Of a stretch of 24,514 nt of DNA, positions 3,454-24,477 are shown piece after piece. Every line of letters starts with the position of its first letter. Within the stretch, counting starts at the first letter, position 1. The position numbers and the translations under genes are program-made. The notes below the pieces were generated by a model. The model had not been told where the DNA came from, made no database searches, and worked only from the letters and a program-made list of their open reading frames with translations. The DNA comes from a virus: positions 1 to 24,514 of IMG/VR virus record IMGVR_UViG_3300042378_000221; one strand, given 5' to 3'.

Positions 3454-3798
3454 ATGAAAAAGCTTATTTTAGGACTAATGTTTGCAGGATTGATCGCTGG
3501 AGTTTGTGAGGCACGACCAAGATACTATTCTAATAATGGTAATAAGGTTTATTCTTACACAAATAACTCATCTGGAAATAACTCAACAGCACAAGGTGTT
3601 GCGGAAATTATGGCATCAAGAGGAACTGTGGGTCATTTTGGTGGAAATTCTGGTTATGAAGGATGTGGTAGCGGATTTTCTCAGCAACAAGCATATGGGA
3701 ATTGCTGTTTCGCTAATAGTGGCATGACAACAGTAGATGTTGGTTATGCTCAAGGCAAAGATGGAAGATGGTATTGTTGCCGACGATATTCTAGGTAA
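3454..3798 (+). CDS. Secreted Cys/Gly-rich protein with signal peptide
   Basis: 114 residues. The start MKKLILGLMFAGLIAGVCEA is a classic Sec signal peptide with a likely cut after EA (residue 20). The mature part has an Asn/Ser/Tyr-rich linker, then a compact domain with GHFGGNSGYEGCGSGFS, GNCCFANSG, VDVGYAQGKDGRWYCCRR; mature cysteines at about 71, 83, 84, 108 and 109. AGGAGG 10 nt upstream is one of the strongest ribosome sites here. From memory, the GHxGG...YEGxG...CC...DxGxAxGxxGxWY pattern occurs in exported proteins of uncultured aquatic phages and some Planctomycetota; this needs a search. A strong hairpin follows, so it closes its operon. Confidence 0.8.
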   Translation: MKKLILGLMFAGLIAGVCEARPRYYSNNGNKVYSYTNNSSGNNSTAQGVAEIMASRGTVGHFGGNSGYEGCGSGFSQQQAYGNCCFANSGMTTVDVGYAQGKDGRWYCCRRYSR

Positions 3799-5903: not shown

Positions 5904-6545
5904 ATGAGTCAAGTAAAATTAGTTAGTGTTACTCCAGATGCTGAAAAATTAATGGCCTATTGTGCGAGAGTAAGTAATCCGAATAATCAAAACAACGATA
6001 ACTATGCTAAACTTTTAAAGTATTGTATTGATCATAAGCATTTTTCCATATTCGAGCAAAGTTTTATGACTGTGGAAATTAATACAACTAGAGGTCTTGC
6101 TGCCCAAATTCTACGACATAGATCGTTCACTTTTCAGGAGTTTAGTCAACGATATGCAGATGCGACATTATTGAGTGAAGAAATTCCATTATTTGAACTT
6201 CGTCGCCAAGACAATAAGAACAGACAGAATAGTATTGATGATATTGATCATGAAATAGTAGTTAAGTGGAATACTCAAATAAGAGAACATTTTTCAAAAG
6301 CAAAAGCGATATATGATAGCATGATTAAAGACGGGGTGGCTAAAGAGTGTGCCAGATTTATACTGCCATTAGCAACTCCAACAAGACTTTATATGAGCGG
6401 AACAGTTCGTTCGTGGCTACATTATATTGAATTACGTTCTGGTCATGGTACTCAAAAAGAACATATGATTATTGCTAATGAATGTAAGAAAATTTTTGTT
6501 GAACAATTTCCTACTATTGGAGAGGCATTAGGATGGACACTTTGA
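5904..6545 (+). CDS. thyX: Flavin-dependent thymidylate synthase ThyX
   Basis: 213 residues, usual ThyX length. ThyX methylates dUMP to dTMP using methylene-tetrahydrofolate, FAD and NADPH, as a homotetramer. The signature RHRxxSxNExSxRY appears as RHRSFTFQEFSQRY at residues 71-84; Thr and Gln replace the common Ser and Asn, and I recall such variants in other phages. The N-terminus (SVTPDAEKLMAYCARVSNP) and the C-terminal block SGTVRSWLHYIELR also fit. AAGGA 7 nt upstream supports the start. Phages carry thyX to raise dTTP during replication, which suits an AT-rich genome. It overlaps the nuclease-like gene downstream. Confidence 0.95.
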   Translation: MSQVKLVSVTPDAEKLMAYCARVSNPNNQNNDNYAKLLKYCIDHKHFSIFEQSFMTVEINTTRGLAAQILRHRSFTFQEFSQRYADATLLSEEIPLFELRRQDNKNRQNSIDDIDHEIVVKWNTQIREHFSKAKAIYDSMIKDGVAKECARFILPLATPTRLYMSGTVRSWLHYIELRSGHGTQKEHMIIANECKKIFVEQFPTIGEALGWTL

Positions 6546-7063
6546 CCATTAATATTACTCCAGAGATTTATCAAGAAGCAGAACAACGTAATCTGTCTTA
6601 TAAAAACAAATATGGAAATACTGGCACTCATAGATTAAACAAAGATCGTCAAAGAATGACGGGGTATCTAGCAGAAGCCAGTATTAGATCGTATTTTCCT
6701 CAACTAAATTATAGCGATAATGATAATGTAGATTTCATAATTGATTCAATAACAATTGATTCAAAAGCACAAGGATGTAATACGAAACCATTAGATAATT
6801 ATGTTGGAACACTTTATGAAGAACAAAAAGCAAGAGATGTAGATTATTATGTTTTTAGTAGAATAAAAAATGATTTTACCATCGCATGGATATGTGGGGC
6901 TATTTCAAAAAAAGACTTTTTCGATCTTTCGACCTTAGTAAAGGCTGGAACGACCAATAATAATTTTACATACGATCAAAGTAGGTATGAGATACAATAT
7001 AATAAATTAATAGATATCAAGTCATTTCTTAACCAGATTGGATCATATAATGAAACTGTTTAA
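6533..7063 (+). CDS. PD-(D/E)XK nuclease-like protein
   Basis: 176 residues. Residues 44-48 GYLAE, then VDF (Asp67) and IDSKA (Asp76-x-Lys78) follow the order E...D...(D/E)xK of the PD-(D/E)XK fold used by restriction, repair and recombination nucleases with Mg2+. Spacing and the hydrophobic strands around each acid fit. The later YYVFSRIKNDFTIAWICGAI strand pair is also common in such phage proteins. GGAGAGG upstream of ATG 6533 supports the start inside the end of thyX. The substrate is unknown: host DNA breakdown, repair or branch cutting are all possible. Confidence 0.65.
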   Translation: MDTLTINITPEIYQEAEQRNLSYKNKYGNTGTHRLNKDRQRMTGYLAEASIRSYFPQLNYSDNDNVDFIIDSITIDSKAQGCNTKPLDNYVGTLYEEQKARDVDYYVFSRIKNDFTIAWICGAISKKDFFDLSTLVKAGTTNNNFTYDQSRYEIQYNKLIDIKSFLNQIGSYNETV

Positions 7064-7244
7064 TATTACTGCTCAGGTTTATAAGAATAATGATCTTTCA
7101 AAACAGAATCTATTAATAAATGAGGTTCACGATGGCTTGTCCTCTGAAGAAGCATTAAATAATTTTAAGCTTCATTTTCCTTCCATAGAATACTCTTTAG
7201 TAAAAATCCTATCTGTTGAACAAATTTCTAAAGTTTTTGCTTGA
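7050..7244 (+). CDS. Small hypothetical protein, 64 aa
   Basis: 64 residues from ATG 7050 (MKLFNITAQVYKNND). A TTG at 7038 is in frame but lacks support. Beta strand, helix, beta strand layout: NLLINEVHDGLSSEEALNNF, then IEYSLVKILSVEQISKVF. It overlaps the previous gene by 14 nt, and its 3' end overlaps the -35 box of promoter P2, so it closes the P1 gene run. Function unknown. Confidence 0.65.
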   Translation: MKLFNITAQVYKNNDLSKQNLLINEVHDGLSSEEALNNFKLHFPSIEYSLVKILSVEQISKVFA

Positions 7245-7269
7245 CTGTAGCCGATGCTTGTGGTATGCT
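7241..7269 (+). promoter_or_regulatory. Promoter P2, CGAT-spacer class, before uvsE
   Basis: TTGACT at 7241-7246, 17-nt spacer with CCGAT at 7251-7255 and GTGG at its end, TATGCT at 7264-7269. A start near 7276 leaves a leader of about 13 nt containing GAGG before ATG 7289. It sits at the tail of the previous gene. Confidence 0.75.
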
Positions 7270-7288
7270 GGTCAAAAACGAGGAAACT

Positions 7289-8200
7289 ATGCGTTACGGA
7301 TTGTGTTGTATTTCGCTCAAACTTAAAGAGCAGGGTATTGGTCATCAGACCATGACTTTTAAACGCTTCAATTCTCTGCCGCGAGAAGAAGCCATAGCAA
7401 TACTTGGAGATAGGATTCTTAATAATCTTATTACTACTCGTAAAACTATTGAGTTTTGCGGACAAAGTGACTATGTTTATCGTGTTAGTAGCGATATTTT
7501 TCCTCTCATTACTTATGATGAGGCTAATGTAAGTTTGGAAGATTTGCCAAACCATGATGAAATTCAAGATGAGTTTGATAATATTGCACAAAGCATTATT
7601 GATAGTAATGTAAGAGTTTCTGCACATCCTTCTGAATTTAACAGTTTGTCTAGTTTGACTCCTAGAGTTGTTGAAAAGACTATTACAGAATTGAATTTCT
7701 ATAGTAGTTTTTTTGACAGAATCGGACTGCCAGCAGATACTAATTCACCAATGAATCTTCATGTTCATAATAATAACGGAACCAGAGAAGAAATCTCTCG
7801 TCGTTTTTACGAAAACTTTAAGCGTCTTGATGAAAATTGTCAGACACGACTTACTATTGAAAATGATGATAAACTTAATTGCTGGAGCGTGAAAGAACTG
7901 GTTGATATTTTTCATCCTATTACTCGCATCCCAATCTGTTTCGATTATCTGCATCATAAGTGTCATCCTAATAATTTGACAGAGTGTGAGGCTATTAATA
8001 TGTGCTTTGACACTTGGCAAACTCGTCCATTATTTCATTATAGTGAGAGTAGGCTTGGAAATAATCCAAGGGCTCATTCTGATTATTCAGAAAATGCTTT
8101 TAATACTTACGGACTAGAATTTGATGTGGACATGGAACTAAAAGCAAAAGACTTGGCTATAGAAAATCATATAGAAATTACTAAAGGGGTTGCAGTATGA
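7289..8200 (+). CDS. uvsE: UV damage endonuclease (UVDE/UvsE family)
   Basis: 303 residues, normal for bacterial UvsE. These TIM-barrel enzymes nick DNA 5' to UV photoproducts with a metal cluster. Family motifs in order: RYGLCC at the start, YRVSSDIFPL near 64-73, SAHPSEF (His113), NLHVH (His158, His160), LTIENDD (Glu191, Asp193), PICFDYLHH (Asp219, His222, His223), HYSES (Glu253), AHSDY (His263, Asp265), D-x-E-x-KAKD at the end. All expected metal ligands seem present. The frame stays open upstream to TTG 7241, but that codon is the -35 box; GAGG before ATG 7289 decides the start. Codon use (more CGT and ATT) differs from the glycan genes. Confidence 0.93.
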   Translation: MRYGLCCISLKLKEQGIGHQTMTFKRFNSLPREEAIAILGDRILNNLITTRKTIEFCGQSDYVYRVSSDIFPLITYDEANVSLEDLPNHDEIQDEFDNIAQSIIDSNVRVSAHPSEFNSLSSLTPRVVEKTITELNFYSSFFDRIGLPADTNSPMNLHVHNNNGTREEISRRFYENFKRLDENCQTRLTIENDDKLNCWSVKELVDIFHPITRIPICFDYLHHKCHPNNLTECEAINMCFDTWQTRPLFHYSESRLGNNPRAHSDYSENAFNTYGLEFDVDMELKAKDLAIENHIEITKGVAV

Positions 8201-11435: not shown

Positions 11436-11511
11436 GGGGCGGAAGGTAAGCCGGTTGCATCCGACACTCTTATAAGGTGTTCATAGGTTGGTTCGACTCC
11501 AACTCGCCCTA
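11436..11511 (+). tRNA. tRNA-Ile (anticodon UAU, reads AUA)
   Basis: Acceptor GGGGCGG (11436-11442) pairs with TCGCCCT (11504-11510), G-T at both ends; discriminator A; CCA is not encoded. The T arm is perfect: GTTGG / TTCGACT / CCAAC. The anticodon stem ACACT/GGTGT holds loop CTTATAA, giving U33, anticodon UAU and A37. The D loop has the usual GG, but the D stem has only two clear pairs (G11445-C11462, G11446-C11461), unusual though not rare in phage tRNAs. UAU reads AUA, a codon common in the glycan genes downstream. A promoter sits just upstream. Confidence 0.7.
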
Positions 11512-12699: not shown

Positions 12700-13269
12700 A
12701 TGAAAACAATAAGTTTAATGTGCCATACTTGTGGAAAAACTATTTCCAAACCCAAAAATGAAATAAATAGACAGTTAAAAAATGGGAGAACAGAATTTTA
12801 TTGTAATTTAAGTTGTTCTGGAAAAAATAAAAATAATATTGAACATTTAAAAAACTTCAAAGACAATTTCAAAAATATAAGATATATAAAACAGACAGAT
12901 GAATATTCTAATTTTAGATGGTACATGAAAGTTATAAGAAAAAGTTCTAAAAGAAAAAATCAAAAACATAATGTCAATTGTCAATATCTTAAAGATTTAT
13001 GGGAAAAGCAAAATGGTATATGTCCATTTACACATAAAAAATTAGATTTAAGGACACATTCAAAAGATAGTCTTAAAAATCCATATTCTGCATCTATAGA
13101 TAGAATTGATAATACTAAAGGATATATAGAGGGAAATATTAGATTTGTCGCTTTAATATACAATTACGCAAGAAATACTTTCTCAGATGATGAGGTAATG
13201 GATTTTTGTAAAAACGTGTGGAACAGACTTGACAATGGCTTCAATGCCAACGCCTCCACTTTATTATGA
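12700..13269 (+). CDS. HNH endonuclease, probably homing type
   Basis: 189 residues. An N-terminal zinc motif (C8-x-x-C11, then C35-x3-C39) resembles those ahead of HNH domains. Residues 106-160 carry NGICPFTHKKLDLRTH, SASIDRIDNTKGYIEGNIRF (Asp134, Asp137, Asn146) and an NTFSDDEVMDFC helix: the order of HNH homing nucleases of the DRIDxxKGYxxGN type. The gene is very A-rich and follows the tmRNA directly with its ribosome site in a 13-bp hairpin. It would cut a tmRNA- or neighbour-related site in alleles lacking it. It overlaps the endonuclease VII-like gene by ATGA. Confidence 0.88.
   Translation: MKTISLMCHTCGKTISKPKNEINRQLKNGRTEFYCNLSCSGKNKNNIEHLKNFKDNFKNIRYIKQTDEYSNFRWYMKVIRKSSKRKNQKHNVNCQYLKDLWEKQNGICPFTHKKLDLRTHSKDSLKNPYSASIDRIDNTKGYIEGNIRFVALIYNYARNTFSDDEVMDFCKNVWNRLDNGFNANASTLL
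13251..13259 (+). repeat. CGCCTCCAC copy 3 (3' end of HNH gene)
   Basis: Nine bases identical to 12634-12642, lying in the last codons of the HNH gene (Ala-Ser-Thr). With copy 1 it brackets the hairpin and the HNH gene, as a short insertion duplication would. Confidence 0.5.
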
Positions 13270-13631
13270 TTAGAAAAATTTGTTCATACTGTGGCAAAAG
13301 GAAAAACTGTAAAAGTTTCCCCAAGCATAGTATGTATAAAGATAATCTGGATAGTAGATGTAGAAGTTGTGTTAAGAAACAAACTAAAGTTCGTGGAAAA
13401 CTTCACAAAAAAGCCCCTCCTCGCCCAGAGGTATGTGAGTGCTGTAAAAAAGCCCCATTAAAATGGTGCTTGGATCACGATCATTCTGATGATTCTTTTA
13501 GAGGATGGCTCTGTGATAGGTGTAATACTGGCATAGGTAAACTTGATGACAATTTAAACGGTGTAATTAAGGCTGTAAACTATTTAATTATGGCAAAAAA
13601 TAGGAAACAGCAAAATGATAACAATCCATAG
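13266..13631 (+). CDS. Endonuclease VII-like (T4 gp49 family)
   Basis: 121 residues. The C-terminal domain has CECC (57-60), LDHDH (Asp70, His71, His73), FRGWLCDRCNTGIGKLDDN (Cys83, Cys86, Asn87), the zinc-bound His-Me finger of recombination endonuclease VII. T4 gp49 resolves branched DNA before packaging and is somewhat longer, at 157 residues. An extra N-terminal zinc ribbon (C6-x-x-C9, C32-x-x-C35) precedes it. It could be a true resolvase or a solitary homing nuclease; standing next to the HNH gene favours the second slightly. It overlaps the first glycan gene by 17 nt. Confidence 0.88.
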   Translation: MIRKICSYCGKRKNCKSFPKHSMYKDNLDSRCRSCVKKQTKVRGKLHKKAPPRPEVCECCKKAPLKWCLDHDHSDDSFRGWLCDRCNTGIGKLDDNLNGVIKAVNYLIMAKNRKQQNDNNP

Positions 13632-14433
13632 TTTTTTCCCTAATGATATTTCTAGCATCAGGGCTAATACTTTATCAGCAAGTAAACAAGCAGAATTGTC
13701 AAATAAATTCTTAAAAAAGCATCAATATACTACAATATTATATACTGACGCAGAAAGCATATCTTATTTTAAACATATACCATATGATGATATAAGAATA
13801 TTAGATTTAAAAGATTATCAATTACCAAATACTTTTGACTTTTGGTCTGTTACTAAACTTGTTTCTTGTTTGTCTGTTAATGAGCCATTTTATCATGTAG
13901 ATTTAGATTTATTTTTAGTAGAAGATATTATACAACAATATAAAAATGAACCCTTTATAGCTTTGCATTATGAACCATGGATCAAAGATTGTTTTTTTAG
14001 TAAGTTGCCTAAAGATAAAATAGACGAATGGTTTAATATAGATAATGACATTGCTCAATGTTATAATTTTGGTATTTTTGGCGGAATGGATCATACTACC
14101 ATTAAAAACAGCATAGAACATCTAATAACGGGTGTTAATACTCATAATAATGAGATAACTGAATTTTTATCAACACTAGAAACAGACGGATATAATTGGA
14201 AGACATCAGTGTTTTTAGAGCAATATATATTGCCATCAATTATTGCGAAAAAATTGAACGTACAGAATTTACCAGTTTTAGTACCAGAATCCATAACAGC
14301 AAAAGGTGAAATCGGAATCAGACACAGACTTAAAAAACATAAAATATTACATTTGTGGGGATTAAAGAATACGTTTGAAGAATTTATGGGACTAAATTTA
14401 TTTTTAGATATGATAAACAAATATTATTTATAA
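13615..14433 (+). CDS. Glycosyltransferase-like, GT-A fold (DUF6734-like)
   Basis: 272 residues. YHVDLDLFLVEDI gives the D-x-D (Asp96, Asp98) that binds metal and nucleotide sugar. FDFWSVTKLVSC before it and NFGIFGGMDHTTI (about 151-163) after it are typical of GT-A enzymes; ILHLWGLKN near the end could add a metal-binding His. From memory, DUF6734 proteins look like this; I would search to confirm. AGGA 9 nt before the ATG is one of the few ribosome sites in the island. First gene of the glycan island, overlapping the endonuclease VII gene. Confidence 0.75.
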   Translation: MITIHSFFPNDISSIRANTLSASKQAELSNKFLKKHQYTTILYTDAESISYFKHIPYDDIRILDLKDYQLPNTFDFWSVTKLVSCLSVNEPFYHVDLDLFLVEDIIQQYKNEPFIALHYEPWIKDCFFSKLPKDKIDEWFNIDNDIAQCYNFGIFGGMDHTTIKNSIEHLITGVNTHNNEITEFLSTLETDGYNWKTSVFLEQYILPSIIAKKLNVQNLPVLVPESITAKGEIGIRHRLKKHKILHLWGLKNTFEEFMGLNLFLDMINKYYL

Positions 14434-14436
14434 CAT

Positions 14437-15123
14437 ATGAATATTCCAATATTTTGTATTAATCTTGAACGAGCAACAGAAAGAAAATCTTTAATACAGA
14501 AAGAATGGATAGATAAACTAAATTTAGATATTGTTTTTTGGAAAGGTTATGATAGAAAAAATATAACAAATAATAAATTTATATATCCATATGATAAAAA
14601 ATTAGCAATAAGTTTTATGGGCAGACAACTGAGCGAAGGAGAGATAGCATGTGCTACAAGTTTTTGCCTTCTCTATGAGCACTTATTAGAGAATAATTAT
14701 GAAGAAGTAATTATTATGGAGGATGATATAACTCCATTAATAAAAAACAAAGACGAATTATTTAATACAATATCTGAGGGAAAAAAAGAATTTCCTACAG
14801 CAGATATGATGCTTTTACACGAATATCCACACGCAAATAAGAAAAAAGTCTATAGTATAAAAAAAGAGATATTTTCAATGTGTGATGAAAGTCCATGGGG
14901 GAATCAATTATTTTATACAAAAAAATTAGCAATATTAGAACTTTATTTATTATTAAGAACCATGTCTATGCCAGCAGACCATCCTCAGAGACAACTTTCT
15001 AGTCAACAAAGAGTGATTATAGTAAACAAAGCATTATGTCATCACGAATGGACTGGGCCAAAATCTACAACATATATTGGTAACGAATACAGAAATTCAA
15101 ATAGAAAATTTATTGATAATTAA
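14437..15123 (+). CDS. Glycosyltransferase family 25 (LPS-type)
   Basis: 228 residues. FCINLERATERKSLIQK at the N-terminus, LSEGEIACATSFCLLYEHLL (66-85) and VIIMEDDITPL (Glu95-Asp96-Asp97) are the three GT25 signatures (Pfam Glyco_transf_25), used by bacteria to add galactose to lipooligosaccharide and in animals on collagen hydroxylysine. DHPQRQLSSQQRVIIVN near the end corresponds to the variable acceptor region. No ribosome site ahead of the ATG. Three bases follow the previous stop, so it is cotranscribed. Confidence 0.88.
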   Translation: MNIPIFCINLERATERKSLIQKEWIDKLNLDIVFWKGYDRKNITNNKFIYPYDKKLAISFMGRQLSEGEIACATSFCLLYEHLLENNYEEVIIMEDDITPLIKNKDELFNTISEGKKEFPTADMMLLHEYPHANKKKVYSIKKEIFSMCDESPWGNQLFYTKKLAILELYLLLRTMSMPADHPQRQLSSQQRVIIVNKALCHHEWTGPKSTTYIGNEYRNSNRKFIDN

Positions 15124-15125
15124 AT

Positions 15126-15971
15126 ATGAATAAAAATATTCTTATCACAGGAGGTGCTGGATTTGTGGGGTCAAATCTTGGAAAAAGATTATATTCTTTA
15201 GGATGTTCTGTAGTGTCTATAGATAATTATTCTACCGGATCAGAAAATAATCACACAGAAGGCATAGAATATATTAAGAATGACATTATATCAACCATAG
15301 ATTACCATAGATATGGTAAGTTTGATGCTATAGTTCATTGTGCAGCAAAGGCCAGGATAAAACAATCTTTTATTGACGATAAAGAATATTTCCATACTAA
15401 CATTCTTGGGACATATAATATTACAAAGTATGCTGCTCAAAATAGTATTCCAATAGTTTATATTGGAACAAGTTCTCATCATAGCGGCAAATTTAGTAAT
15501 CCATATACTTTTACGAAAGATGTTGGAGAAGACATAATAAGACTATATCAACAAAATTTTAGTTTATTAGCATCTATTGCTAGATTATATAATGTGTATG
15601 GACCGAATGAATTGATGGATGATAATGGAACATTAATTGGTAAATGGAAATATAATTATAAAAATAATTTACCTTTTATCATTTATGGTGATGGATCTAA
15701 ACGCCGTGACTTTACTCATGTTGATGATGTATGTGATGCAATAATTAAAATTATAATAAATCTCAAATACGGATTTGAATTTGAATTAGGCAGAGGTGAG
15801 AATTATAGCGTATCTGAAGTAGCAGATATGTTTCAATACAATAATATAATATACAAACCAGATTTGGTTGGAGAAGCACCAACTACTCTGGCAGAAAATA
15901 ATGAAACAAAAACCATTTTAAATTGGAATCCAAAAAATAATTTATCAGTATATATAAAAAGCATTAAATAA
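15126..15971 (+). CDS. NAD-dependent epimerase/dehydratase (extended SDR)
   Basis: 281 residues, slightly short for the family (about 310). TGGAGFVGSN (8-17) is the GxxGxxG NAD site; Asp33 (VVSIDNYSTGS) selects NAD; VHCAAKA, YIGTSS (Ser116/117) and Y127-TFT-K131 are the catalytic set; ARLYNVYGPNE and YGDGSKRRDFTHVDDVCDAI follow. It would act on a nucleotide sugar, as UDP-glucose 4-epimerase does, to supply the island's transferases. It is the only sugar-nucleotide enzyme here, so other donors must come from host or other phage genes. Confidence 0.92.
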   Translation: MNKNILITGGAGFVGSNLGKRLYSLGCSVVSIDNYSTGSENNHTEGIEYIKNDIISTIDYHRYGKFDAIVHCAAKARIKQSFIDDKEYFHTNILGTYNITKYAAQNSIPIVYIGTSSHHSGKFSNPYTFTKDVGEDIIRLYQQNFSLLASIARLYNVYGPNELMDDNGTLIGKWKYNYKNNLPFIIYGDGSKRRDFTHVDDVCDAIIKIIINLKYGFEFELGRGENYSVSEVADMFQYNNIIYKPDLVGEAPTTLAENNETKTILNWNPKNNLSVYIKSIK

Positions 15972-15974
15972 TTT

Positions 15975-16652
15975 ATGAAACAATTTTGTAATCTAATCTA
16001 TAATACAAATCCAACTATTTTTCATGCTCATGGAATACCACAAAAATCCCCTTTGTGGCAAAGAATTAAAGATTTATGTAACAACGATGTTTTTATACCT
16101 CATAATCTACAAATAGTCACATTTAATAATGGATCATCACACTGCAATAAAGATGTCGGGAGTTTAGAGAACTCAATTCAAAATAGATGCACAGTTATGG
16201 GAGCCGATATAAAAAAATGGAATAATATTCACAAAATATCACTAATAATAGATTACTTAAAGTCGAATCAGACCGATTATGTTCTCAGTATGGATTCCTC
16301 AGATGTTGTTGTTTTTTGTTTGGACGAAATTATAGAAAAGTTTTTATTGAAAAATTGTGATATTCTGTTTAATGCCGAAATAAATTGTTGGCCTAAAGAT
16401 TATAGCGATGAAAAAAAATGGTTTCGTGAACCCTTTTGTTATTTAAATGCTGGAGCGTGTATCGGCAAAAAAGAATCAATGCTTAAATTTTATAGCCAGT
16501 GCCTATCTTTTGTAAAGGTCGAAGATTACTCTGAACAAAAAATTGTTAAACAAAATTTTTATAAATGGTACCCTAAAATTTTAATTGACGATAATTGTAG
16601 TATTTTTCAAACACTTAACGGAACAACCGAAGACATATTACATATCCCATGA
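15975..16652 (+). CDS. Glycosyltransferase, PLOD-like type
   Basis: 225 residues. YVLSMDSSDVVVFC (Asp107-x-x-Asp110), ILFNAEINCWP (131-140), YLNAGACIGKKESM (157-) and ILIDDNCSIFQTL (Asp205, Asp206) match the glycosyltransferase domain of procollagen lysyl hydroxylase/glucosyltransferase (PLOD) enzymes, which glucosylate hydroxylysine-linked sugar. Such domains occur alone in large viruses and phages. It follows the epimerase gene by 3 nt with no ribosome site. No hydroxylase domain is fused here. Acceptor unknown. Confidence 0.75.
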   Translation: MKQFCNLIYNTNPTIFHAHGIPQKSPLWQRIKDLCNNDVFIPHNLQIVTFNNGSSHCNKDVGSLENSIQNRCTVMGADIKKWNNIHKISLIIDYLKSNQTDYVLSMDSSDVVVFCLDEIIEKFLLKNCDILFNAEINCWPKDYSDEKKWFREPFCYLNAGACIGKKESMLKFYSQCLSFVKVEDYSEQKIVKQNFYKWYPKILIDDNCSIFQTLNGTTEDILHIP

Positions 16653-17377
16653 TAAATACAGTTTTAGCATCATATTTCTGTTCAACGCCTGATCCTTTAT
16701 CCCTTAATGATTATAGAAAACATGTTGTTAGAGATGATCAAAGGATAGATTTTTGGAAAAATGATTATACTCTAATACTTCCACTAATTGATAGTGTTCT
16801 AAAAAATGGATCTAATATTGTTGTATTCCATGATTGTTTTGATAATATTCCGAATATAGATGGTTGTTTATGGGTAAGAATTGAAAACAATGAAAAATAT
16901 ACTCCAACAACATATAGATGGTTTGTTTATTATGAGTATTTAAAAAAACATAAATTTTCAAATTTATTTATGGTTGATAGTACCGACGTGCTTATGTTAA
17001 AAAATTATGATATAAAAAATAATACTTTATATTGTGGTAGTGAATATAAAGACAAACTTTTATCTACTTATATGAAAAAAAAATTTAAATATATAACCAT
17101 ATCAGATTTTGATGAAGTATTAAATCAATATAGAGATCATACTTTACTAAATGCAGGTGTAGTTGGTGGAGACTATAACATATGTATTAGATTATTAGAA
17201 AAATTAACACAATATCATTCTCAAGTTTCAAAAAATATAAAGATATCTTTAGATATGCCAATTTTTAATTATGTATTATTTAAATATTTTAAAGAGAACA
17301 TTGATTATGGCATTCATATAAATACTAGATTTTGGTGTAATGAATACAATAATATTTCTATTTGGAAACACAAGTGA
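16649..17377 (+). CDS. Putative glycosyltransferase, GT-A fold
   Basis: 242 residues. LFMVDSTDVLMLKN carries a D-x-x-D pair (Asp110, Asp113), LLNAGVVGGDYNIC (from 166) the N-A-G-x-x-G acceptor loop, and LDMPIFNYVLF a later acidic contact. This order parallels the PLOD-like gene before it, so the two may be distant relatives. It starts on an ATGA overlap without a ribosome site. Donor and acceptor unknown. Confidence 0.7.
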   Translation: MINTVLASYFCSTPDPLSLNDYRKHVVRDDQRIDFWKNDYTLILPLIDSVLKNGSNIVVFHDCFDNIPNIDGCLWVRIENNEKYTPTTYRWFVYYEYLKKHKFSNLFMVDSTDVLMLKNYDIKNNTLYCGSEYKDKLLSTYMKKKFKYITISDFDEVLNQYRDHTLLNAGVVGGDYNICIRLLEKLTQYHSQVSKNIKISLDMPIFNYVLFKYFKENIDYGIHINTRFWCNEYNNISIWKHK

Positions 17378-17413
17378 TCTTATTAAAGAAAAAACTAATA
17401 GAAAGTTTATTGA

Positions 17414-18127
17414 ATGAAAATAAATATAGTAGTAACCTGTATAGATCATACAGATAATTATAAATACATAAATATGTTAAAATATTGGATATATAAATAT
17501 AATAAATCTAATACAGATGCAAACTTAATAGTTCTATCTGACACAAAAACTGACTTATCATTTTTAGACAAAAAAATTGATTGTATTAGATACGATCTAG
17601 ATTATGATAAAGAGTATCAAGAAATTAAAAAAAAATATATATCATGTAACAATAAATGGTATGACCACAATATGGTAATATCAGATATTTTACGGTTTGG
17701 AAAAATGCCAGCAATGTTTCAAAATTTATTAATTATTGATTTAGACGCTATTGTGGAAAAAACAATAAATATTCCTGATGATATCGTATCAAAACCAATG
17801 GCAGGATGTGATCATGGGGAGTACAGCAAAAAATTAAATGCTGGATTTACATATATTAATACTAATTTAGGGCCCGAACTTTTAAATAAAGTAATTAATA
17901 CCAATTTAAATTATCCTTGGCTTTGTGAGGATCTTATATCTGAGATATGGATCGATAAATATTATCATAAACTACCCCCAGAATATAATTGGTTAGTAGG
18001 CTTATATGGATTTAACCCTAAAGCATATGTTAATCATTATTGGAACCATAGATATCCTAAATTTTTTGCAAAAAAAATGCTAGAATATAAAGTTAATAAT
18101 TTCATAAAAGGAAGTCAAATTATATGA
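17414..18127 (+). CDS. Putative glycosyltransferase, GT-A fold
   Basis: 237 residues. NIVVTCIDHTDNYKYIN starts the fold; LLIIDLDAIVEK gives D-x-D (Asp109, Asp111); KLNAGFTYINTNLG (from 140) is the acceptor loop; LCEDLISEIWIDKY and LPPEYNWLVGLYG then NHYWNHRYPKFF supply late metal and substrate contacts. In its first 40 codons all six Ile codons are ATA. 36 nt separate it from the previous gene. Its end overlaps the methyltransferase gene by ATGA. Confidence 0.72.
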   Translation: MKINIVVTCIDHTDNYKYINMLKYWIYKYNKSNTDANLIVLSDTKTDLSFLDKKIDCIRYDLDYDKEYQEIKKKYISCNNKWYDHNMVISDILRFGKMPAMFQNLLIIDLDAIVEKTINIPDDIVSKPMAGCDHGEYSKKLNAGFTYINTNLGPELLNKVINTNLNYPWLCEDLISEIWIDKYYHKLPPEYNWLVGLYGFNPKAYVNHYWNHRYPKFFAKKMLEYKVNNFIKGSQII

Positions 18128-18657
18128 GCCGTCTTGAAGAACTTTTAAAATGTAAAAGAATGGATTACGGCTATCCTGTAGACGGTAATTTATTGCATGG
18201 ATTATATGATTTGGTTTGTGATAATATAACAAAAGACAGCACTATAGTAGAGATAGGTAGTTATTCTGGAATTTCGTCAGAATTATTTGCATTATTCTGT
18301 AACAAATTATACTGTGTTGATATTTGGGAGGGTTTCTCCGCACCGGCAGAAAAAACATTTGATGAGCTAATTATTAAATACAACAATATTGTAAAAATAA
18401 AATTAAATAGTAGCAATGCTGCAAAAATTTTTCAGAATCATTTTATAGACCTAGTATATATTGATGCGGAACATAGTTATCATGCTACTAAAAATTATAT
18501 TCTTTCATGGATGCCAAAGATTAAACCAAATGGAATAATTTCTGGCCATGATTATTATTGGCCAGGAGTAAACCAAGTAGTTAATGAAATATTTTCTAAC
18601 AAACAGATTAAAATTTATAAAGATGACTCTTGGCTTGTAAAACTTAATAGCGATTGA
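18124..18657 (+). CDS. Class I SAM-dependent methyltransferase (MTase_24-like)
   Basis: 177 residues. IVEIGSYSGISSELFA (Glu43, Gly45, Gly49) is motif I for SAM, CVDIW (Asp66) motif II, LVYIDAEHSYHATKNYI (Asp114, Glu116, His117) and IKPNGIISGHDYYWPGVNQV typical of Methyltransf_24, whose members methylate small molecules and sugars. The island context suggests O-methylation of a sugar. GGAAG 9 nt before the ATG. It ends just before promoter P6. Confidence 0.85.
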   Translation: MSRLEELLKCKRMDYGYPVDGNLLHGLYDLVCDNITKDSTIVEIGSYSGISSELFALFCNKLYCVDIWEGFSAPAEKTFDELIIKYNNIVKIKLNSSNAAKIFQNHFIDLVYIDAEHSYHATKNYILSWMPKIKPNGIISGHDYYWPGVNQVVNEIFSNKQIKIYKDDSWLVKLNSD

Positions 18658-18670
18658 GTCAAGTTTCTGC

Positions 18671-18699
18671 TTGACAACGACGATATTGTATGGTATCGT
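18671..18699 (+). promoter_or_regulatory. Promoter P6, CGAT-spacer class, before ligase
   Basis: TTGACA at 18671-18676, 17-nt spacer with CGAT at 18681-18684 and ATGG at its end, TATCGT at 18694-18699, a poor -10 (4 of 6). GTCAAG at 18658-18663 and CTTGAC at 18670-18675 form an inverted repeat over the -35, possibly an operator. Confidence 0.7.
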
Positions 18700-18727
18700 A
18701 GAAGGACACAACAAGGAGAAATTGGGA

Positions 18728-20053
18728 ATGATTCACGATTTTAATTATGTTTGGGGAATGGTTCGTGATCTTAGGGCGACCAGTAGCACTATTGATAAGG
18801 TGGGTATTATTGAGGATTATTGTGCTGGTGGACGATCTGATCCATCTGCTGCTAATTTTACTAAAAAGATTCTACTCTATACTTATCATCCCGCTTGGCA
18901 GTATTTTGTTACGAGTGATAATCTTAAAAAGAAAAGTTCTCTCAGGGGCAAATCTTACAAGAATTTCTTTGATCTTCTGAATGACCTAAAGAATCGTGTT
19001 ATAACTGGTCACGATGCTATCGGAGCAATACATACTTTTATCGATTCTTGTTCTGATAAGTCGAACATAGAAGAACTAGTTTACTGCATTATCGACAAAG
19101 ATTTAAAAACCCGTGCTGGGGATAAGATTATTAATAAGGCTATTCCCGATCATATTCCAGAGTTTAGTGTTGCTCTTGCTGATAAGTATGAGCCTAAACT
19201 TGTAGACTGGAAAGACTCTTGGTTTGTCTCACGCAAACTAGACGGATTGAGATTGATTGCTGTTGTTGATGAGAATGGTAACTCCACTTTCTTTTCACGA
19301 ACAGGCAAAGTATTTGATACTCTAGATATTATTTCTGGTGGTATTAAGGCTTTGGGTATTACTAATGTTGTATTTGATGGTGAACTATGTTTGGTAGATG
19401 ATGATGGTAATGAAGATTTTCAGGGCATTATGAAAGAGATTAGAAAGAAAGACCATACTATTCCTAATCCATCATATAAGATGTTCGACATGATTAGCCA
19501 TGACGAGTTTTATAGTAAGAAGGGAGAGAAGAATAAGACTTATAGCCACAGATACAATAATCTGAGAGAAGTTATGAAAGAAAATACTTGCGTTTGTCTT
19601 AGCGTATTAGGTCAAGAAAAAATTAAAGATGATGAACATTTTCAAGAATGGGTTAAAAAAGCAGCAGATTATGGCTGGGAAGGAATTATGCTACGAGCAG
19701 ATGAGCCATATAAAGGTAAGCGTAGCAAAGATTTGCTAAAAGTTAAGAAATTTTTTGATGACGAATATGAAGTAGTTGATACTGAGATGGGGCCATTTCG
19801 TTATGTTAAAGATGGTGCAGAACATGAGGAGCCTATGCTTTCTTGCGTTATGATTCAGCATAAGGATCATACAGTTAGGGTTGGTAGTGGATTTAGTATT
19901 GAACAGCGTCAAGAATTCTACAAAAATCCTAAAAAGATTTTGGGTAAACAAATAACTGTACAATATTTTGAAGAGACCAATAACCAAGATGGAGGTATCT
20001 CTCTTAGATTCCCTACTTTCAAAATTCTGCATGGCAAACGCAGAGACACATAA
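18728..20053 (+). CDS. ATP-dependent DNA ligase
   Basis: 441 residues. The enzyme seals nicks through an enzyme-AMP intermediate. An N-terminal helical domain of about 150 residues is followed by SRKLDGLRLI (motif I, adenylated Lys170), VVFDGELCLVDDDGNE (motif III), YKMFDMIS (IIIa), WEGIMLRADEPYKGK (IV) and LLKVKKFFDDEYEV (V), then an OB domain with VRVGSGFS. Phage ligases of this size seal Okazaki fragments or repair nicks. AGGAG at 18714-18718 decides ATG 18728; the frame is open upstream to TTG 18671, but that is the -35 box. Codon use differs from the surrounding glycan genes (no ATA among its first four Ile codons). Confidence 0.93.
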   Translation: MIHDFNYVWGMVRDLRATSSTIDKVGIIEDYCAGGRSDPSAANFTKKILLYTYHPAWQYFVTSDNLKKKSSLRGKSYKNFFDLLNDLKNRVITGHDAIGAIHTFIDSCSDKSNIEELVYCIIDKDLKTRAGDKIINKAIPDHIPEFSVALADKYEPKLVDWKDSWFVSRKLDGLRLIAVVDENGNSTFFSRTGKVFDTLDIISGGIKALGITNVVFDGELCLVDDDGNEDFQGIMKEIRKKDHTIPNPSYKMFDMISHDEFYSKKGEKNKTYSHRYNNLREVMKENTCVCLSVLGQEKIKDDEHFQEWVKKAADYGWEGIMLRADEPYKGKRSKDLLKVKKFFDDEYEVVDTEMGPFRYVKDGAEHEEPMLSCVMIQHKDHTVRVGSGFSIEQRQEFYKNPKKILGKQITVQYFEETNNQDGGISLRFPTFKILHGKRRDT

Positions 20054-20070
20054 AATTTTAGGTAAAATGT

Positions 20071-22059
20071 ATGGTATTATCTATAGACAATTTTAATATC
20101 AACACACATTACGATGTTAAAGATAATCAGATATATAATAATCCAATATTTAAGATCAGTTATTGTATAACTTGTCACAACAGAACATGGCAGTTAAAAC
20201 AAACTCTTGCTCATAATATTCTAGGTCTTAAAGACGATGAACAAATTGTTTTAGTTAATTATAGCAGTAACGATGGGCTAGACGAGTTTATAAAAACTAA
20301 TCATATACAAAATATTGTAAACAACAAATTAAAATACATATATGTTTGTGATCAAAATTATTATAATTGCTCAATTGCTAAAAATATTGCTCATTATTTT
20401 GCAGATAGCGAATATGTAGTTAATTTAGACGGCGATAATTTTATAGATGAATTTAGAGCAACTATTGATTACACTATTGGTAACTTCAAAAATAACTTTA
20501 TTCTTCATCTAGCCGTTTTGGAAAAAGATTTTCACGATTCCCATAAACAACTAAAAGGATACGAAGGAAGTTTTGGTAGAATTTGCTGTCATAAAGAAGA
20601 TTTTATTTCTCTTGGAGGTTATAATGAAAGTTTTTTGCCAATAGCGTATCAAGATTCAGACTTGCTATTACGAGCAATAGCAAAAAAAATGAACTATATT
20701 AATATACCTATTAAAACCAAGTGTTTGAAAAATAATAAGAGCATAACCTATAAAACTAAAAACAACCATCAATATTCATGGATCGATTGTAAAAAAATTA
20801 ACCAATTAATTTCAAATTATAATATCTCTAATAATAAACTAATAGCACCAAACATTATAAAAAATTTTAAGTGCTACTTTAATTTGCATAGTACGCCCGA
20901 AAGAATTACTTATAATAATACCAAGGATATAGTATCTGACTGGCAAATAATAGAGCAAACAGAACATACAGAACCATTAGAAATGCAAAATATTATAGAA
21001 TTTTATAAATACAATGTATTAGACCAAGAATTTGATAGTAAATTTTATCAGACAAATTATCCTGAAACGATCAACTACTATCAGCCATTTTGTTTACAAA
21101 ATAACGTACCTGAACAACAAAGATTATTTCATCATTATGTCTTATATGGTAAAAAATCTGGCTATCTCAAAAATTTAAAAGACTTTATTCAACAAAATCT
21201 TTCTGTATTAGATATGACCAAAATAGATACTGGGGATGTGGATCAAATTTATCCAGTATCCCCCGGTTATGTTGAGCAATATATGATACAAACACAAAAT
21301 GGTAAGGACATTGCTGCTAAAAGTAAAATAGGCATAGTTTCCTTGGCGAGAAATTGTTCTAAAAATATTATTAAGTCTATAAAAAATATACAAAAAATAA
21401 TATGTAAAGATTGGAGAATGATAATTTATGAGAATGATTCTATAGATAATACAAAAAATCTTTTACAAAGCGTTGAGGATAATAGAATACATACTATTAG
21501 TATAGACGATAATAGCTCCTATTTAATAGACAGATCGCAAACTAGAACAAACAATTTGGCAAGATATAGGAATTTCTGCATAGACTGGATTGATAAAAAC
21601 TATTCAGATTGTGATTATGTTATTGTTTTAGATTTGGATGCTGATCTTGGTTTTTCTATAGAAGGAATTTATAATAGTATTAGTTGGTTAAGTTCACTAG
21701 ACGATGCTGGTGGCATAGGATCGTACTCGCCTCTTTTGTCTATAGAAAATAGTAAAATTGTATTTGTTCACTATGATTCGTTTGCTGTTAGAATGAATGA
21801 TTGGGAACCCATAGTCAATAACAAAGATATTCATAATCCTTGGTTTAAACACTGGCATCCTGTGGTTGGATCAAATCCTGTGCCTATTTATTCTTGTTTT
21901 GGGGGTTTGGCTGTTTATAAAACAAAAGCATTTCTTAAAGGAAGATACGACGGTAATTTAGGATCAGAACATATTGCATTTCATAAAAGCCTCAGAGATG
22001 AAGGATATAATATGTACTTAAATCCTAGTAGCCGATTTTTTCTATATACAAATCAATGA
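20071..22059 (+). CDS. Two-domain glycosyltransferase (GT2 plus CAP59-like)
   Basis: 662 residues. Domain 1 (about 25-260) is GT2-like: ISYCITCHNRTWQLKQTL, LVNYSSNDG, VVNLDGDNF (Asp120, Asp122), then GSFGRICCHKEDFISLGGYN and YQDSDLLLRA. A middle part ends with LFHHYVLYGKKSGYL (about 352), a motif I recall joining glycosyltransferase domains. Domain 2 starts near 421 (GIVSLARNCSKNI, IIYENDSIDNTKNL, ARYRNF, VLDLDADLG with Asp521/523/525), the layout of CAP59-type mannosyltransferases (GT69). It could add two sugars in turn. Largest gene in the window, weak ribosome site, first in the second island half. Confidence 0.82.
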   Translation: MVLSIDNFNINTHYDVKDNQIYNNPIFKISYCITCHNRTWQLKQTLAHNILGLKDDEQIVLVNYSSNDGLDEFIKTNHIQNIVNNKLKYIYVCDQNYYNCSIAKNIAHYFADSEYVVNLDGDNFIDEFRATIDYTIGNFKNNFILHLAVLEKDFHDSHKQLKGYEGSFGRICCHKEDFISLGGYNESFLPIAYQDSDLLLRAIAKKMNYINIPIKTKCLKNNKSITYKTKNNHQYSWIDCKKINQLISNYNISNNKLIAPNIIKNFKCYFNLHSTPERITYNNTKDIVSDWQIIEQTEHTEPLEMQNIIEFYKYNVLDQEFDSKFYQTNYPETINYYQPFCLQNNVPEQQRLFHHYVLYGKKSGYLKNLKDFIQQNLSVLDMTKIDTGDVDQIYPVSPGYVEQYMIQTQNGKDIAAKSKIGIVSLARNCSKNIIKSIKNIQKIICKDWRMIIYENDSIDNTKNLLQSVEDNRIHTISIDDNSSYLIDRSQTRTNNLARYRNFCIDWIDKNYSDCDYVIVLDLDADLGFSIEGIYNSISWLSSLDDAGGIGSYSPLLSIENSKIVFVHYDSFAVRMNDWEPIVNNKDIHNPWFKHWHPVVGSNPVPIYSCFGGLAVYKTKAFLKGRYDGNLGSEHIAFHKSLRDEGYNMYLNPSSRFFLYTNQ

Positions 22060-22793
22060 TAAAAAAATATTTTGTAATATACGGAGAAAGAAACAGTGGA
22101 ACTAATTATTTAGAAACCGTTCTGACTGGAAAATCTTATCATTTATCATATACGTCTTCTTGTTTTGAAACTATTGTAATTAATTCATCAATTGCAGAAA
22201 TTTATAATGATAAATATGGACACAAACATTTTTTTGGATTTTATGATAAAATAATTAAGAACACAAGCAGTAATATTGTATTCGTTGGAATAGTTAGAAA
22301 TCCTTATGATTGGATTATGGCTTTAAATAAATCCAAACACCATATTCCTCCAGACAATCAAAATATTGAAAGTTTTGTAAAAAATGAGTGGTATTCTATA
22401 CAACACAACACAAAACACGTTGACTATGGTAGAGAATTCATGGATGACAGAGATTTTACAACTGGGCATCTTCTTGATAACTTATATGGTTATTCTAATC
22501 TACCAAAACGTTACAAAAATATATTTGATATGAGAAGTAAAAAACTTAGATATTTATTATATACAATGCCAACACTAGTAACTAATTATGAACTAATCAA
22601 GTATGAAGATTTTATAATGGATCCTACGAGTATACTTACTGAATGGTCTAAAAAATATAATCTTGAATTAAATTCAACATTCATGCCACCAATTAAAAAA
22701 GAAGCCTATCCAATACCAGAAGAAATTAAAAAAAGTATCAATGAGGGAGTAGACTGGGAAATAGACAATAAATTAGGATACTATATTAAGTAG
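22056..22793 (+). CDS. Sulfotransferase-like protein
   Basis: 245 residues. VIYGERNSGTNYLE (7-20) is a PAPS 5'-phosphosulfate loop and VGIVRNPYDWIMAL (77-90, Arg81) the 3'-phosphate strand; TNYELIKYEDFIMDP near 180-200 also fits sulfotransferases. These enzymes move sulfate from PAPS to hydroxyls, often on sugars. It overlaps the two-domain glycosyltransferase by ATGA, so the two are tightly coupled. A kinase-like P-loop protein is an alternative, but the RNPYDW strand argues for sulfotransferase. Confidence 0.8.
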   Translation: MIKKYFVIYGERNSGTNYLETVLTGKSYHLSYTSSCFETIVINSSIAEIYNDKYGHKHFFGFYDKIIKNTSSNIVFVGIVRNPYDWIMALNKSKHHIPPDNQNIESFVKNEWYSIQHNTKHVDYGREFMDDRDFTTGHLLDNLYGYSNLPKRYKNIFDMRSKKLRYLLYTMPTLVTNYELIKYEDFIMDPTSILTEWSKKYNLELNSTFMPPIKKEAYPIPEEIKKSINEGVDWEIDNKLGYYIK

Positions 22794-22805
22794 GCGAGAA
22801 CCTTT

Positions 22806-23003
22806 ATGAGTGACGAAACTACAAATTACCAATTCTATACTGACGGATATACTGATGGCTACGCAAATAAAGAATATAATCCATATCGTCTATTAACAAA
22901 GGTAACACAAGAAAACGATATAGATATTATGATAAAAGAATATGCTAAAGGATATGAAACTGGTAAATTTAATGCTGAAATAGATGAAAAAAATTATGAA
23001 TAA
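22806..23003 (+). CDS. Small protein with repeated YxxGY motif
   Basis: 65 residues. YTDGYTDGYANKEYNPYRLL and later YAKGYETGKFN repeat a Y-x-x-G-Y unit, suggesting a small helical or capping domain. GGCGAG at 22794-22799 is a modest ribosome site. It overlaps the methyltransferase gene in another frame. Function unknown. Confidence 0.6.
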   Translation: MSDETTNYQFYTDGYTDGYANKEYNPYRLLTKVTQENDIDIMIKEYAKGYETGKFNAEIDEKNYE

Positions 23004-23679
23004 ACAAGAAAAAAAACAACTCGTTGATTCATATCGCCATTGGTGGCACTCTATAGATTTTGGTGATGGTATAATTTCTCAAGGAGAAAAAAGCACCATT
23101 GTTCACGAAAGAGAAAAAACTCAATGGTTTCCAAGTGATTTTTTTAAAGACAAAAGAGTTTTAGACGTAGGAACATGGGATGGATATTATGCGTTTTACG
23201 CAGAACAGGCTGGGGCATCAGAGGTTATAGCGGTGGATAAATTTGTATGGGAAGGAACTAGGGGCAGATGTAAACTAGGATTTGATATTGCTAAACAAAT
23301 TTTGAACTCTAAAGTTAAAGAACATGTCTTATATATTGAAGATATGACGCCTGAAATATTAGGAACATTTGATTCTATCATATTTACTGGAGTTTTTTAT
23401 CATCTTCAAAATCCTTATTGTGCATTAGAAATATTGGATAAGCTATTAAATAATAATGGAAGAATAATTATAGAAACTACAATGCGAAATTTAGAAATTG
23501 ATAAACCATTGATGGAATTTCATCCAAAAAAAACATTAAATAATGATCCAACTAATTTTTGGTCACCTAATACATTATGTTTAAGATTAATGTTTGAAGA
23601 AATTGGTAATTATGTTGTTGAGAAAATACACGAAGGAAAGCGTGGCATTATGATAGTAAAAAAGGGGATCACGATTTAA
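22984..23679 (+). CDS. Class I SAM methyltransferase (DUF1698/CmoB-like)
   Basis: 231 residues from ATG 22984; ATG 22996 is an equally possible start. The N-terminal WWHSIDFGDGII and KSTIVHEREKTQWFP precede RVLDVGTWDGYYAFYAEQAG (motif I, Asp61, Gly63, Gly67), AVDKFVW (Asp85), FDSIIFTGVFYHLQNPYCAL (motif IV) and FWSPNTLCLRLMFEEIG. CmoB, which modifies tRNA wobble uridine, has a similar core, but such domains also methylate sugars and lipids in glycan gene clusters, which fits here. Last island gene. Confidence 0.82.
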   Translation: MKKIMNKQEKKQLVDSYRHWWHSIDFGDGIISQGEKSTIVHEREKTQWFPSDFFKDKRVLDVGTWDGYYAFYAEQAGASEVIAVDKFVWEGTRGRCKLGFDIAKQILNSKVKEHVLYIEDMTPEILGTFDSIIFTGVFYHLQNPYCALEILDKLLNNNGRIIIETTMRNLEIDKPLMEFHPKKTLNNDPTNFWSPNTLCLRLMFEEIGNYVVEKIHEGKRGIMIVKKGITI

Positions 23680-23711: not shown

Positions 23712-23740
23712 TTGACAAACCGATACCTGTAGTGTAGAAT
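23712..23740 (+). promoter_or_regulatory. Promoter P7, CGAT-spacer class
   Basis: TTGACA at 23712-23717, 17-nt spacer with CCGAT at 23720-23724, TAGAAT at 23735-23740. A leader of about 29 nt holds GGAG at 23766-23769 before ATG 23776. It lies 32 nt after the methyltransferase gene. Confidence 0.83.
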
Positions 23741-23775: not shown

Positions 23776-24477
23776 ATGATTGTTGAGAACTCTGTTATTC
23801 CTGTTCAGAATAATACTTTGGATAAGACTAAGGCCGATATTTTCTTTGAGAATTTCCCTAAAGATAAGGTTGTTTCATACAAGGAATACTGGGAGAGTGT
23901 TCGTCCTCAGAATGCGGAGGATATTTTTCGTCGCTATCTCTTTGCCTATTGCTCTGTTCATACCACTTGGAAGGGTAATTGCTCAGGATATAATGCTATC
24001 AAGAATTTTAACGAGTGGATTGACAATAAAGAGACTCTGCTAAATAAACTCCACAAGAGCGGCGTTGGACTTCACAATAATCGCACCAACTATATTTGGG
24101 ATTTTAGTGAGAAGTTTTGGGCTAATCCTAAAGACTTTTACTTTACATCTAAGAAGGGTCATGTTAAGAAGCGTGACAGTATTCTGAATAAGATTAGTGG
24201 GATTGGTCTTGCTAAGATTAGTTTTGCTCTTGAAATGATTCATCCTAATGAGGCTAGGGTATTGTGTTTGGATGTTCATATGCTTCGTCTGTATGATATG
24301 GAACATTTGAAGTATAATAAGAGTAAAAATGGATCAACTACCTATAAAAAGGCTGAACGCCATTGGATGGTGAATTGTGGAAAAAATAAAATCCCATCTT
24401 ATATTGCCAGATGTGCTTATTGGGATAAGTTGCAGGGTAAAGAAGATTCTCGTTATTGGTCATTTTGTCTTGAATAA
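23776..24477 (+). CDS. HhH-GPD-like DNA repair protein, conserved in phages
   Basis: 233 residues from ATG 23776 with GGAG 6 nt upstream; an in-frame TTG at 23764 overlaps the ribosome site and is rejected. ILNKISGIGLAKISFALEMI has a helix-hairpin-helix G142-I-G144 with Lys147, and CLDVHMLRLYD has Asp166 where endonuclease III-type glycosylases keep the catalytic Asp. The C-terminus (IARCAYWDKLQGKEDSRYWS) is familiar from conserved phage proteins. A base-excision glycosylase or DNA-binding relative is the best guess; there is no iron-sulfur Cys cluster. Codon use matches uvsE and ligase, so it fits the repair set. Confidence 0.72.
   Translation: MIVENSVIPVQNNTLDKTKADIFFENFPKDKVVSYKEYWESVRPQNAEDIFRRYLFAYCSVHTTWKGNCSGYNAIKNFNEWIDNKETLLNKLHKSGVGLHNNRTNYIWDFSEKFWANPKDFYFTSKKGHVKKRDSILNKISGIGLAKISFALEMIHPNEARVLCLDVHMLRLYDMEHLKYNKSKNGSTTYKKAERHWMVNCGKNKIPSYIARCAYWDKLQGKEDSRYWSFCLE

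Follow-up and report, generated by a model that had tools for sequence, protein, structure and literature searches.

Glycosylated phage virions are known from a few isolates. In mycobacteriophage Che8 the virion proteins are glycosylated and gp110 is essential for capsid glycosylation, according to the account in PMC12363180 that cites Freeman 2023. Megavirinae giant viruses carry glycogene clusters, such as ma457-ma468 of Moumouvirus australiensis, which contain glycosyltransferases, sugar-nucleotide enzymes and a sulfotransferase and vary between clades (PMC10117803). Here we analyze a 24.5-kb virus record, IMGVR_UViG_3300042378_000221 (24,514 nucleotides, hereafter the window), which contains an island of putative glycan-modification genes, gA to gK, at positions 13615-23679 (Table 1). 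The island belongs to a lineage of uncultured tailed phages with genomes of about 150 kb. We propose that it is a modular, horizontally exchanged cargo island that modifies glycans and decorates a virion surface protein during infection, a reading that we regard as equally likely to prove right or wrong.

A preliminary description, made from the window's sequence, had recognized twelve genes and interpreted them as an island for glycan modification that includes sulfation and methylation steps. All twelve open reading frames (ORFs) were confirmed; they are open, lie on one strand and overlap or are spaced mostly by less than 40 bp. The glycan-modification theme is supported by protein families, by the predicted fold of gI and by bacterial gene neighborhoods.

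The assignment of gI as sulfotransferase-like, originally based on motifs, gains support from AlphaFold2 and Foldseek. The protein has no Pfam match, and a sequence search against the PDB returned only CmeR, a spurious match, which made a fold comparison necessary. The AlphaFold2 model reached a predicted local distance difference test (pLDDT) score of 86 and a predicted template modeling (pTM) score of 0.85, and the best 50 Foldseek matches in the PDB were all sulfotransferases dependent on 3'-phosphoadenosine 5'-phosphosulfate (PAPS), with probability up to 1.00. An alignment of 21 phage members displays a conserved P-loop region, with GER(H/N)SGTN as the putative 5'-phosphosulfate-binding loop, and an RNPYDW motif with invariant R81. 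The prediction that gI is a PAPS-dependent-type sulfotransferase is well supported by this model. A phage-encoded PAPS supply was not apparent, as APS (adenosine 5'-phosphosulfate) kinase was not found in 20 relatives, and PAPS would therefore come from the host. A tandem pair of gI-type sulfotransferases is present in one other phage (L090:5222-6467).

Bacterial homologs of gI in Saprospiraceae and Chitinophagales adjoin Sulfotransfer_2 genes, glycosyltransferases and ABC-2 export genes; an Aquimarina homolog sits directly before APS kinase, and one Saprospiraceae genome (L118) encodes a gD-like domain near its gI homolog. These are loci of the surface-polysaccharide type, and they favor an alternative in which the cassette adds further sugars, sulfate and methyl groups to the surface polysaccharide of the host as it is made, thereby blocking competitors or protecting the infected cell. 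The membership of gB in the lipopolysaccharide-type GT25 family points in the same direction. However, no membrane span was found in any island protein (maximum 19-residue hydropathy 1.37), so the island has no flippase, ligase or polyprenyl-linked transferase of the kind possessed by known serotype-conversion modules, and export by the host would be required. We consider re-decoration of the host envelope unlikely. In the absence of membrane spans, the island enzymes should act in the cytoplasm. The TTGACA/TGGTATAC promoters and Shine-Dalgarno sites of the backbone genes speak against a host in the Bacteroidota, and the Bacteroidota relatives of gI suggest where the cargo came from, not which host is infected. 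One relative's terminase matched isolates at only ~22-25%.

The island occupies a defined cargo spot. A ligase search provided a comparison set of 76 viral loci on contigs of up to 153 kb; these contigs are fragments, and the ligase-anchored sampling covers this lineage only. Ligases were clustered at 97% by single linkage, under which short fragments may merge clusters. The spot consists of two gaps, between endonuclease VII and ligase and between ligase and the OGG-type glycosylase (OGG), which range from ~10 bp to >6 kb in relatives and hold 5.0 kb and 3.7 kb of cargo, respectively, in the phage of the window. Relatives without any cargo at the spot occur. Where both flanks are visible, 18 of 31 ligase clusters have a sulfotransferase at the spot, from several families (in L061, which represents one of these clusters, all the matches are weak), and 6 have glycosyltransferases. 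Sulfotransfer_4 is found at 13 loci, Sulfotransfer_2 in L048 and L072, Sulfotransfer_1 in L072 and Sulfotransfer_3 in L145; L072 alone encodes four family-supported sulfotransferases, a probable fifth and several glycosyltransferases. The cassettes of L048 and L073 comprise GT2, UDP-GlcNAc 2-epimerase and additional glycosyltransferases; that of L048 includes GT25. After both of these cassettes come genes for ~80-residue proteins (L048:6171-6413 and L073:9478-9726) with two repeats of LAKLxGVTGVLxKxTxxFTxReWTeEE, conceivably an acceptor or a virion piece. Cargo in the larger insertions is mostly glycan-related. Shine-Dalgarno matches precede 29% of cargo genes versus 67% of backbone genes, and in this window the guanine-plus-cytosine fraction is 0.235-0.305 in cargo versus 0.33-0.36 in the backbone, both consistent with recent import.

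Parts of the island are found in other phages as ordered units. In L141/L150 and L142, gC-gD-gE occur in the same order directly before the ligase promoter, as far as the contigs extend. The nucleotide identity of this block is 99.1% for the 3' part of gC, 99.7% for gD (L141) and 96.6% for gE, in comparison with 79.4% for the ligase and 72.6% for OGG, and gF, gG and gH-gK are missing from the same loci. L145 encodes the second half of gH (64% amino acid identity) and gK (70%), followed by a Sulfotransfer_3 gene. An empty and a filled site can be compared directly in L007 and L045, which are 90% identical over 3 kb left of the spot and differ by an insert of Sulfotransfer_4 and glycosyltransferase genes. 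A single conserved operon can be rejected: the island is a composite assembled from modules that are horizontally exchanged at a fixed spot. Separate movement of the genes in no fixed order, named earlier as an outcome that would count against the island, was not observed: gC-gD-gE and the half of gH with gK move as ordered units. The full island occurs in no other lineage. The preliminary description had also seen a candidate for an undescribed system; we read the island as a sulfation-centered form of phage glycan modification, composed of modules and not one conserved system.

The methylation theme extends beyond the window. A third methyltransferase gene of the same phage lies right of OGG (L002:16512-17075), ~700 bp past the right end of the window. 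It belongs to Methyltransf_24 and also passes the cut-off for TylF, the family of macrocin O-methyltransferase, an enzyme that methylates a sugar; it is the closest relative of gG. All nine loci with the Sulfotransfer_4 and glycosyltransferase insert have a methyltransferase gene right of OGG; of the 28 other loci, 26 lack it and the remaining two are contigs of the window's own phage. This co-occurrence is an association and, as the loci are related, no independent proof.

A composite island could also consist of separate morons gathered at a recombination spot, each with a small role and not forming one pathway. The full gene set occurs only in the phage of the window, so that one pathway is unproven; DUF1501, trypsin-like and ferredoxin genes are present at the same spot in some relatives (L009, L015, L019, L063 and L145); and the gK homologs of L146 and L147 are located elsewhere. 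Against separate morons stand the order kept in other phages by the two units described above, the co-occurrence of the methyltransferase right of OGG with glycosyltransferase and sulfotransferase cargo, and the mostly glycan-related content of larger insertions, and we judge such a collection of independent genes to be rather improbable. The single occurrence of the full gene set and the non-glycan genes at the spot also weigh against our own reading of the island, as do several other facts: the Foldseek TM-scores of gI are low (0.3-0.5); the Ser usual in the 3'-phosphate motif, eight residues after R81, is mostly Ala in the gI family; gA and gF are weak glycosyltransferase calls made from a DxD motif only; Che8 gp110, the key enzyme of that phage, has no clear homolog in the island; and acceptor and chemistry are inferred from the genes. 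That all the genes serve a single pathway, with an oligosaccharide capped by sulfate and methyl groups as its end product, is a plausible hypothesis.

In our proposed mechanism, the acceptor is a protein made by the phage, most likely a surface protein of the virion, for example a tail fiber or capsid decoration protein. It would receive several sugars in the cytoplasm from the soluble glycosyltransferases gB, gD, gE and gH, and probably gA and gF. One sugar donor would be shaped by gC and the remaining donors would be taken from the host. The glycan would be capped with sulfate by gI from host PAPS, and gG, gK and the third methyltransferase would make O-methyl additions. Cassette swaps would alter the sugar-sulfate coat and hence adsorption or shielding. 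In relatives, a GDP-mannose 4,6-dehydratase gene adjoins the terminase gene (L108:11342-12322; G002, G006 and G010), so that sugar-nucleotide synthesis in this lineage is also encoded outside the spot.

Capsid or tail protein, DNA and the host surface had all been put forward as targets. We infer that a virion surface protein is the likeliest acceptor, ahead of the host envelope and DNA, and give it an even chance of being the true one. The domain of gD resembles that of a protein glycosyltransferase, LH3. A collagen-like acceptor for this PLOD-type enzyme was not found, as there was no GXY run of at least 8 units in the loci scanned. The least likely target is DNA, the enzymes then glycosylating hypermodified phage DNA and shielding it from host nucleases. 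Phage glycosyltransferases of diverse kinds modify DNA (Pyle 2024, as cited in PMC12619734), and the island adjoins DNA repair genes. However, a thymidylate-synthase-type hydroxymethylase (PF00303) is absent from 20 relatives, six of them of 122-153 kb, which makes DNA modification unlikely; moreover, the island has no match to DNA glucosyltransferase families, cargo-free relatives exist, and the relatives of gD and gE point to protein acceptors. We regard glycosylation of DNA as very improbable.

More tentatively, and with less than even probability, this uncultured phage lineage may sulfate its own virion glycans and, at one spot, trade cassettes of sulfotransferase and glycosyltransferase genes, which would act like a serotype switch of the particle surface. 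To our knowledge, a sulfated glycan on a tailed phage would be a first. Literature searches on phage sulfotransferases, with subscription papers mostly outside their coverage, returned nothing directly comparable, and sulfated viral glycans were proposed for giant viruses only in the literature searched. The presence of a sulfotransferase in about half of the sampled clusters, together with a 97-99.7% identical glycosyltransferase block beside 79% identical ligases, suggests that a charged glycan coat is under strong selection that acts fast. The defined cassettes and the naturally filled and empty sites provide material for studying how glycans benefit phages in adsorption, shielding and competition.

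The individual gene assignments differ in their firmness (Table 1); E-values of local comparisons refer to small databases, and the starts of cargo genes were called automatically. Where six transferase genes with about seven domains had been counted, four genes with five domains are firm and gA and gF are identified by motif only. The gA family, DUF6734, is a family of unknown function, with homologs of gA in L003 and L063 (35-37% identity). The homolog of gB in the L048 cassette is 52% identical. PDB relatives of gC are Pal and UDP-glucose 4-epimerases, and the protein contains the motifs GGAGFVG and YTFTK; gD matches R699 (3e-5) and human LH3 (6e-4) in the PDB. Mycobacteriophage Renaud18 gp110 is 28.7% identical to gE over 99% of gE (8e-16). 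No match to gF was found in the family, PDB, phage or cargo comparisons, and its single-sequence AlphaFold2 model (pLDDT 38) gave no usable fold. The two domains of gH are joined by an unnamed F-D-x-x-F-Y module at about residues 310-375. This ~60-residue module, FDxxFY...HYxxxGKxxGY, is common to glycosyltransferases and Sulfotransfer_4 proteins at the spot (L039, L072 and L145) and is possibly an adaptor domain. Homologs of gK in L145, L146 and L147 are 62-70% identical. The small YxxGY protein gJ, formerly listed among the glycan genes, has no evident glycan role: it has no relatives among the loci compared and probably plays no part in glycan function.

Table 1. Features of the island and its borders, with positions in the window
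Feature	Position	Strand	Basis and remarks
Endonuclease VII-like gene	13266..13631	+	Pfam Endonuclease_7 1e-10; left border of cargo spot, backbone; 55/76 relatives
gA, DUF6734, probable glycosyltransferase	13615..14433	+	Pfam 3e-13; DxD at residue 96
gB, glycosyltransferase family 25 (GT25)	14437..15123	+	Pfam 2e-21
gC, NAD-dependent nucleotide-sugar epimerase/dehydratase	15126..15971	+	Pfam 7e-39; starts mobile gC-gD-gE block
gD, PLOD/LH3-type glycosyltransferase	15975..16652	+	Pfam GT_PLOD 5e-12
gE, glycosyltransferase	16649..17377	+	phrog_1579 (phage glycosyltransferases) 6e-25
gF, unassigned, glycosyltransferase by motif only	17414..18127	+	DxD spotted by eye
gG, Methyltransf_24 methyltransferase	18124..18657	+	Pfam 1e-17
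Ligase promoter	18671..18699	+	TTGACA-17-TATCGT with TG extension
ATP-dependent DNA ligase	18728..20053	+	phrog_114 6e-79; backbone gene splitting island, not cargo
gH, two GT-A-type domains	20071..22059	+	Pfam GT2-like and CAP59-like matches
gI, PAPS-dependent-type sulfotransferase	22056..22793	+	Predicted fold; no Pfam match
gJ, small YxxGY-repeat protein	22806..23003	+	No family match
gK, class I methyltransferase, CmoB-like core	22984..23679	+	Pfam 6e-14
OGG-type HhH DNA glycosylase	23776..24477	+	Pfam Ogg-HhH 4e-9; right border of spot, backbone; 63/76 relatives

The backbone order common in relatives is UvdE, a deaminase-like gene, three small genes, endonuclease VII, ligase and OGG-type glycosylase. 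The ligase starts at ATG 18728 behind the Shine-Dalgarno sequence AAGGAG, as judged from relatives and from that site; the start called by the ORF finder, TTG 18671, was rejected, this TTG being part of the -35 box of a conserved promoter. A TTGACA...TGGTA pattern is found 5' of the ligase in 23 of 46 ligase clusters, and a candidate promoter upstream of OGG, TTGACA-17-TAGAAT, lies at 23712. These predicted promoters suggest that the ligase, and probably OGG too, is transcribed independently of the cargo. Elsewhere in the window, positions 5904-8200 and 11436-11511 encode ThyX, the UV-endonuclease UvdE and a tRNA-Ile with anticodon TAT, and positions 3454-3798 a small, possibly secreted protein in which inspection suggests a signal peptide ahead of a mature part that contains Cys.

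T4-type DNA glucosylation resembles the island in its use of phage-encoded glycosyltransferases and differs from it in that the island has no match to alpha- or beta-glucosyltransferase and its relatives no hydroxymethylase. In the gtr-type serotype-conversion modules of temperate phages, as in the island, phage genes alter a glycosylated surface. The gtr modules comprise a membrane-embedded flippase and transferase, whereas the island is without a membrane span. The Megavirinae clusters are the closest published viral combination of glycosyltransferases and sulfotransferase that we found, and in both cases sulfation is only predicted (PMC10117803). Related viruses also have sugar methyltransferases, and the likeness to the island is one of gene content. 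The Megavirinae are, however, viruses of eukaryotes and not phages, and giant viruses encode an APS kinase of their own as well as complete donor pathways, neither of which was found in the phage relatives here.

The mycobacteriophage loci for virion glycosylation (Che8 gp108-110 and Corndog gp38; Freeman 2023, cited in PMC12363180) share adjacent soluble glycosyltransferase genes, and soluble glycosyltransferase genes are likewise clustered in the genome of the phage analyzed here. An HNH endonuclease gene is nearby in both. The gE homolog Renaud18 gp110 is encoded in a locus arranged like Che8 gp108-110. Unlike the island, the mycobacteriophage loci are not described, in the cited account, with a sulfotransferase, an epimerase or an exchange spot. 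Che8 gp110 was rejected as a homolog of gB, with a short 20% match only; the two belong to different families (phrog_854 and phrog_2835), and virion glycans are a prediction for the phage analyzed here. We have not classified the island as a member of the mycobacteriophage type because gp110 is without a clear homolog here. By analogy, however, the island may work like mycobacteriophage virion glycosylation.

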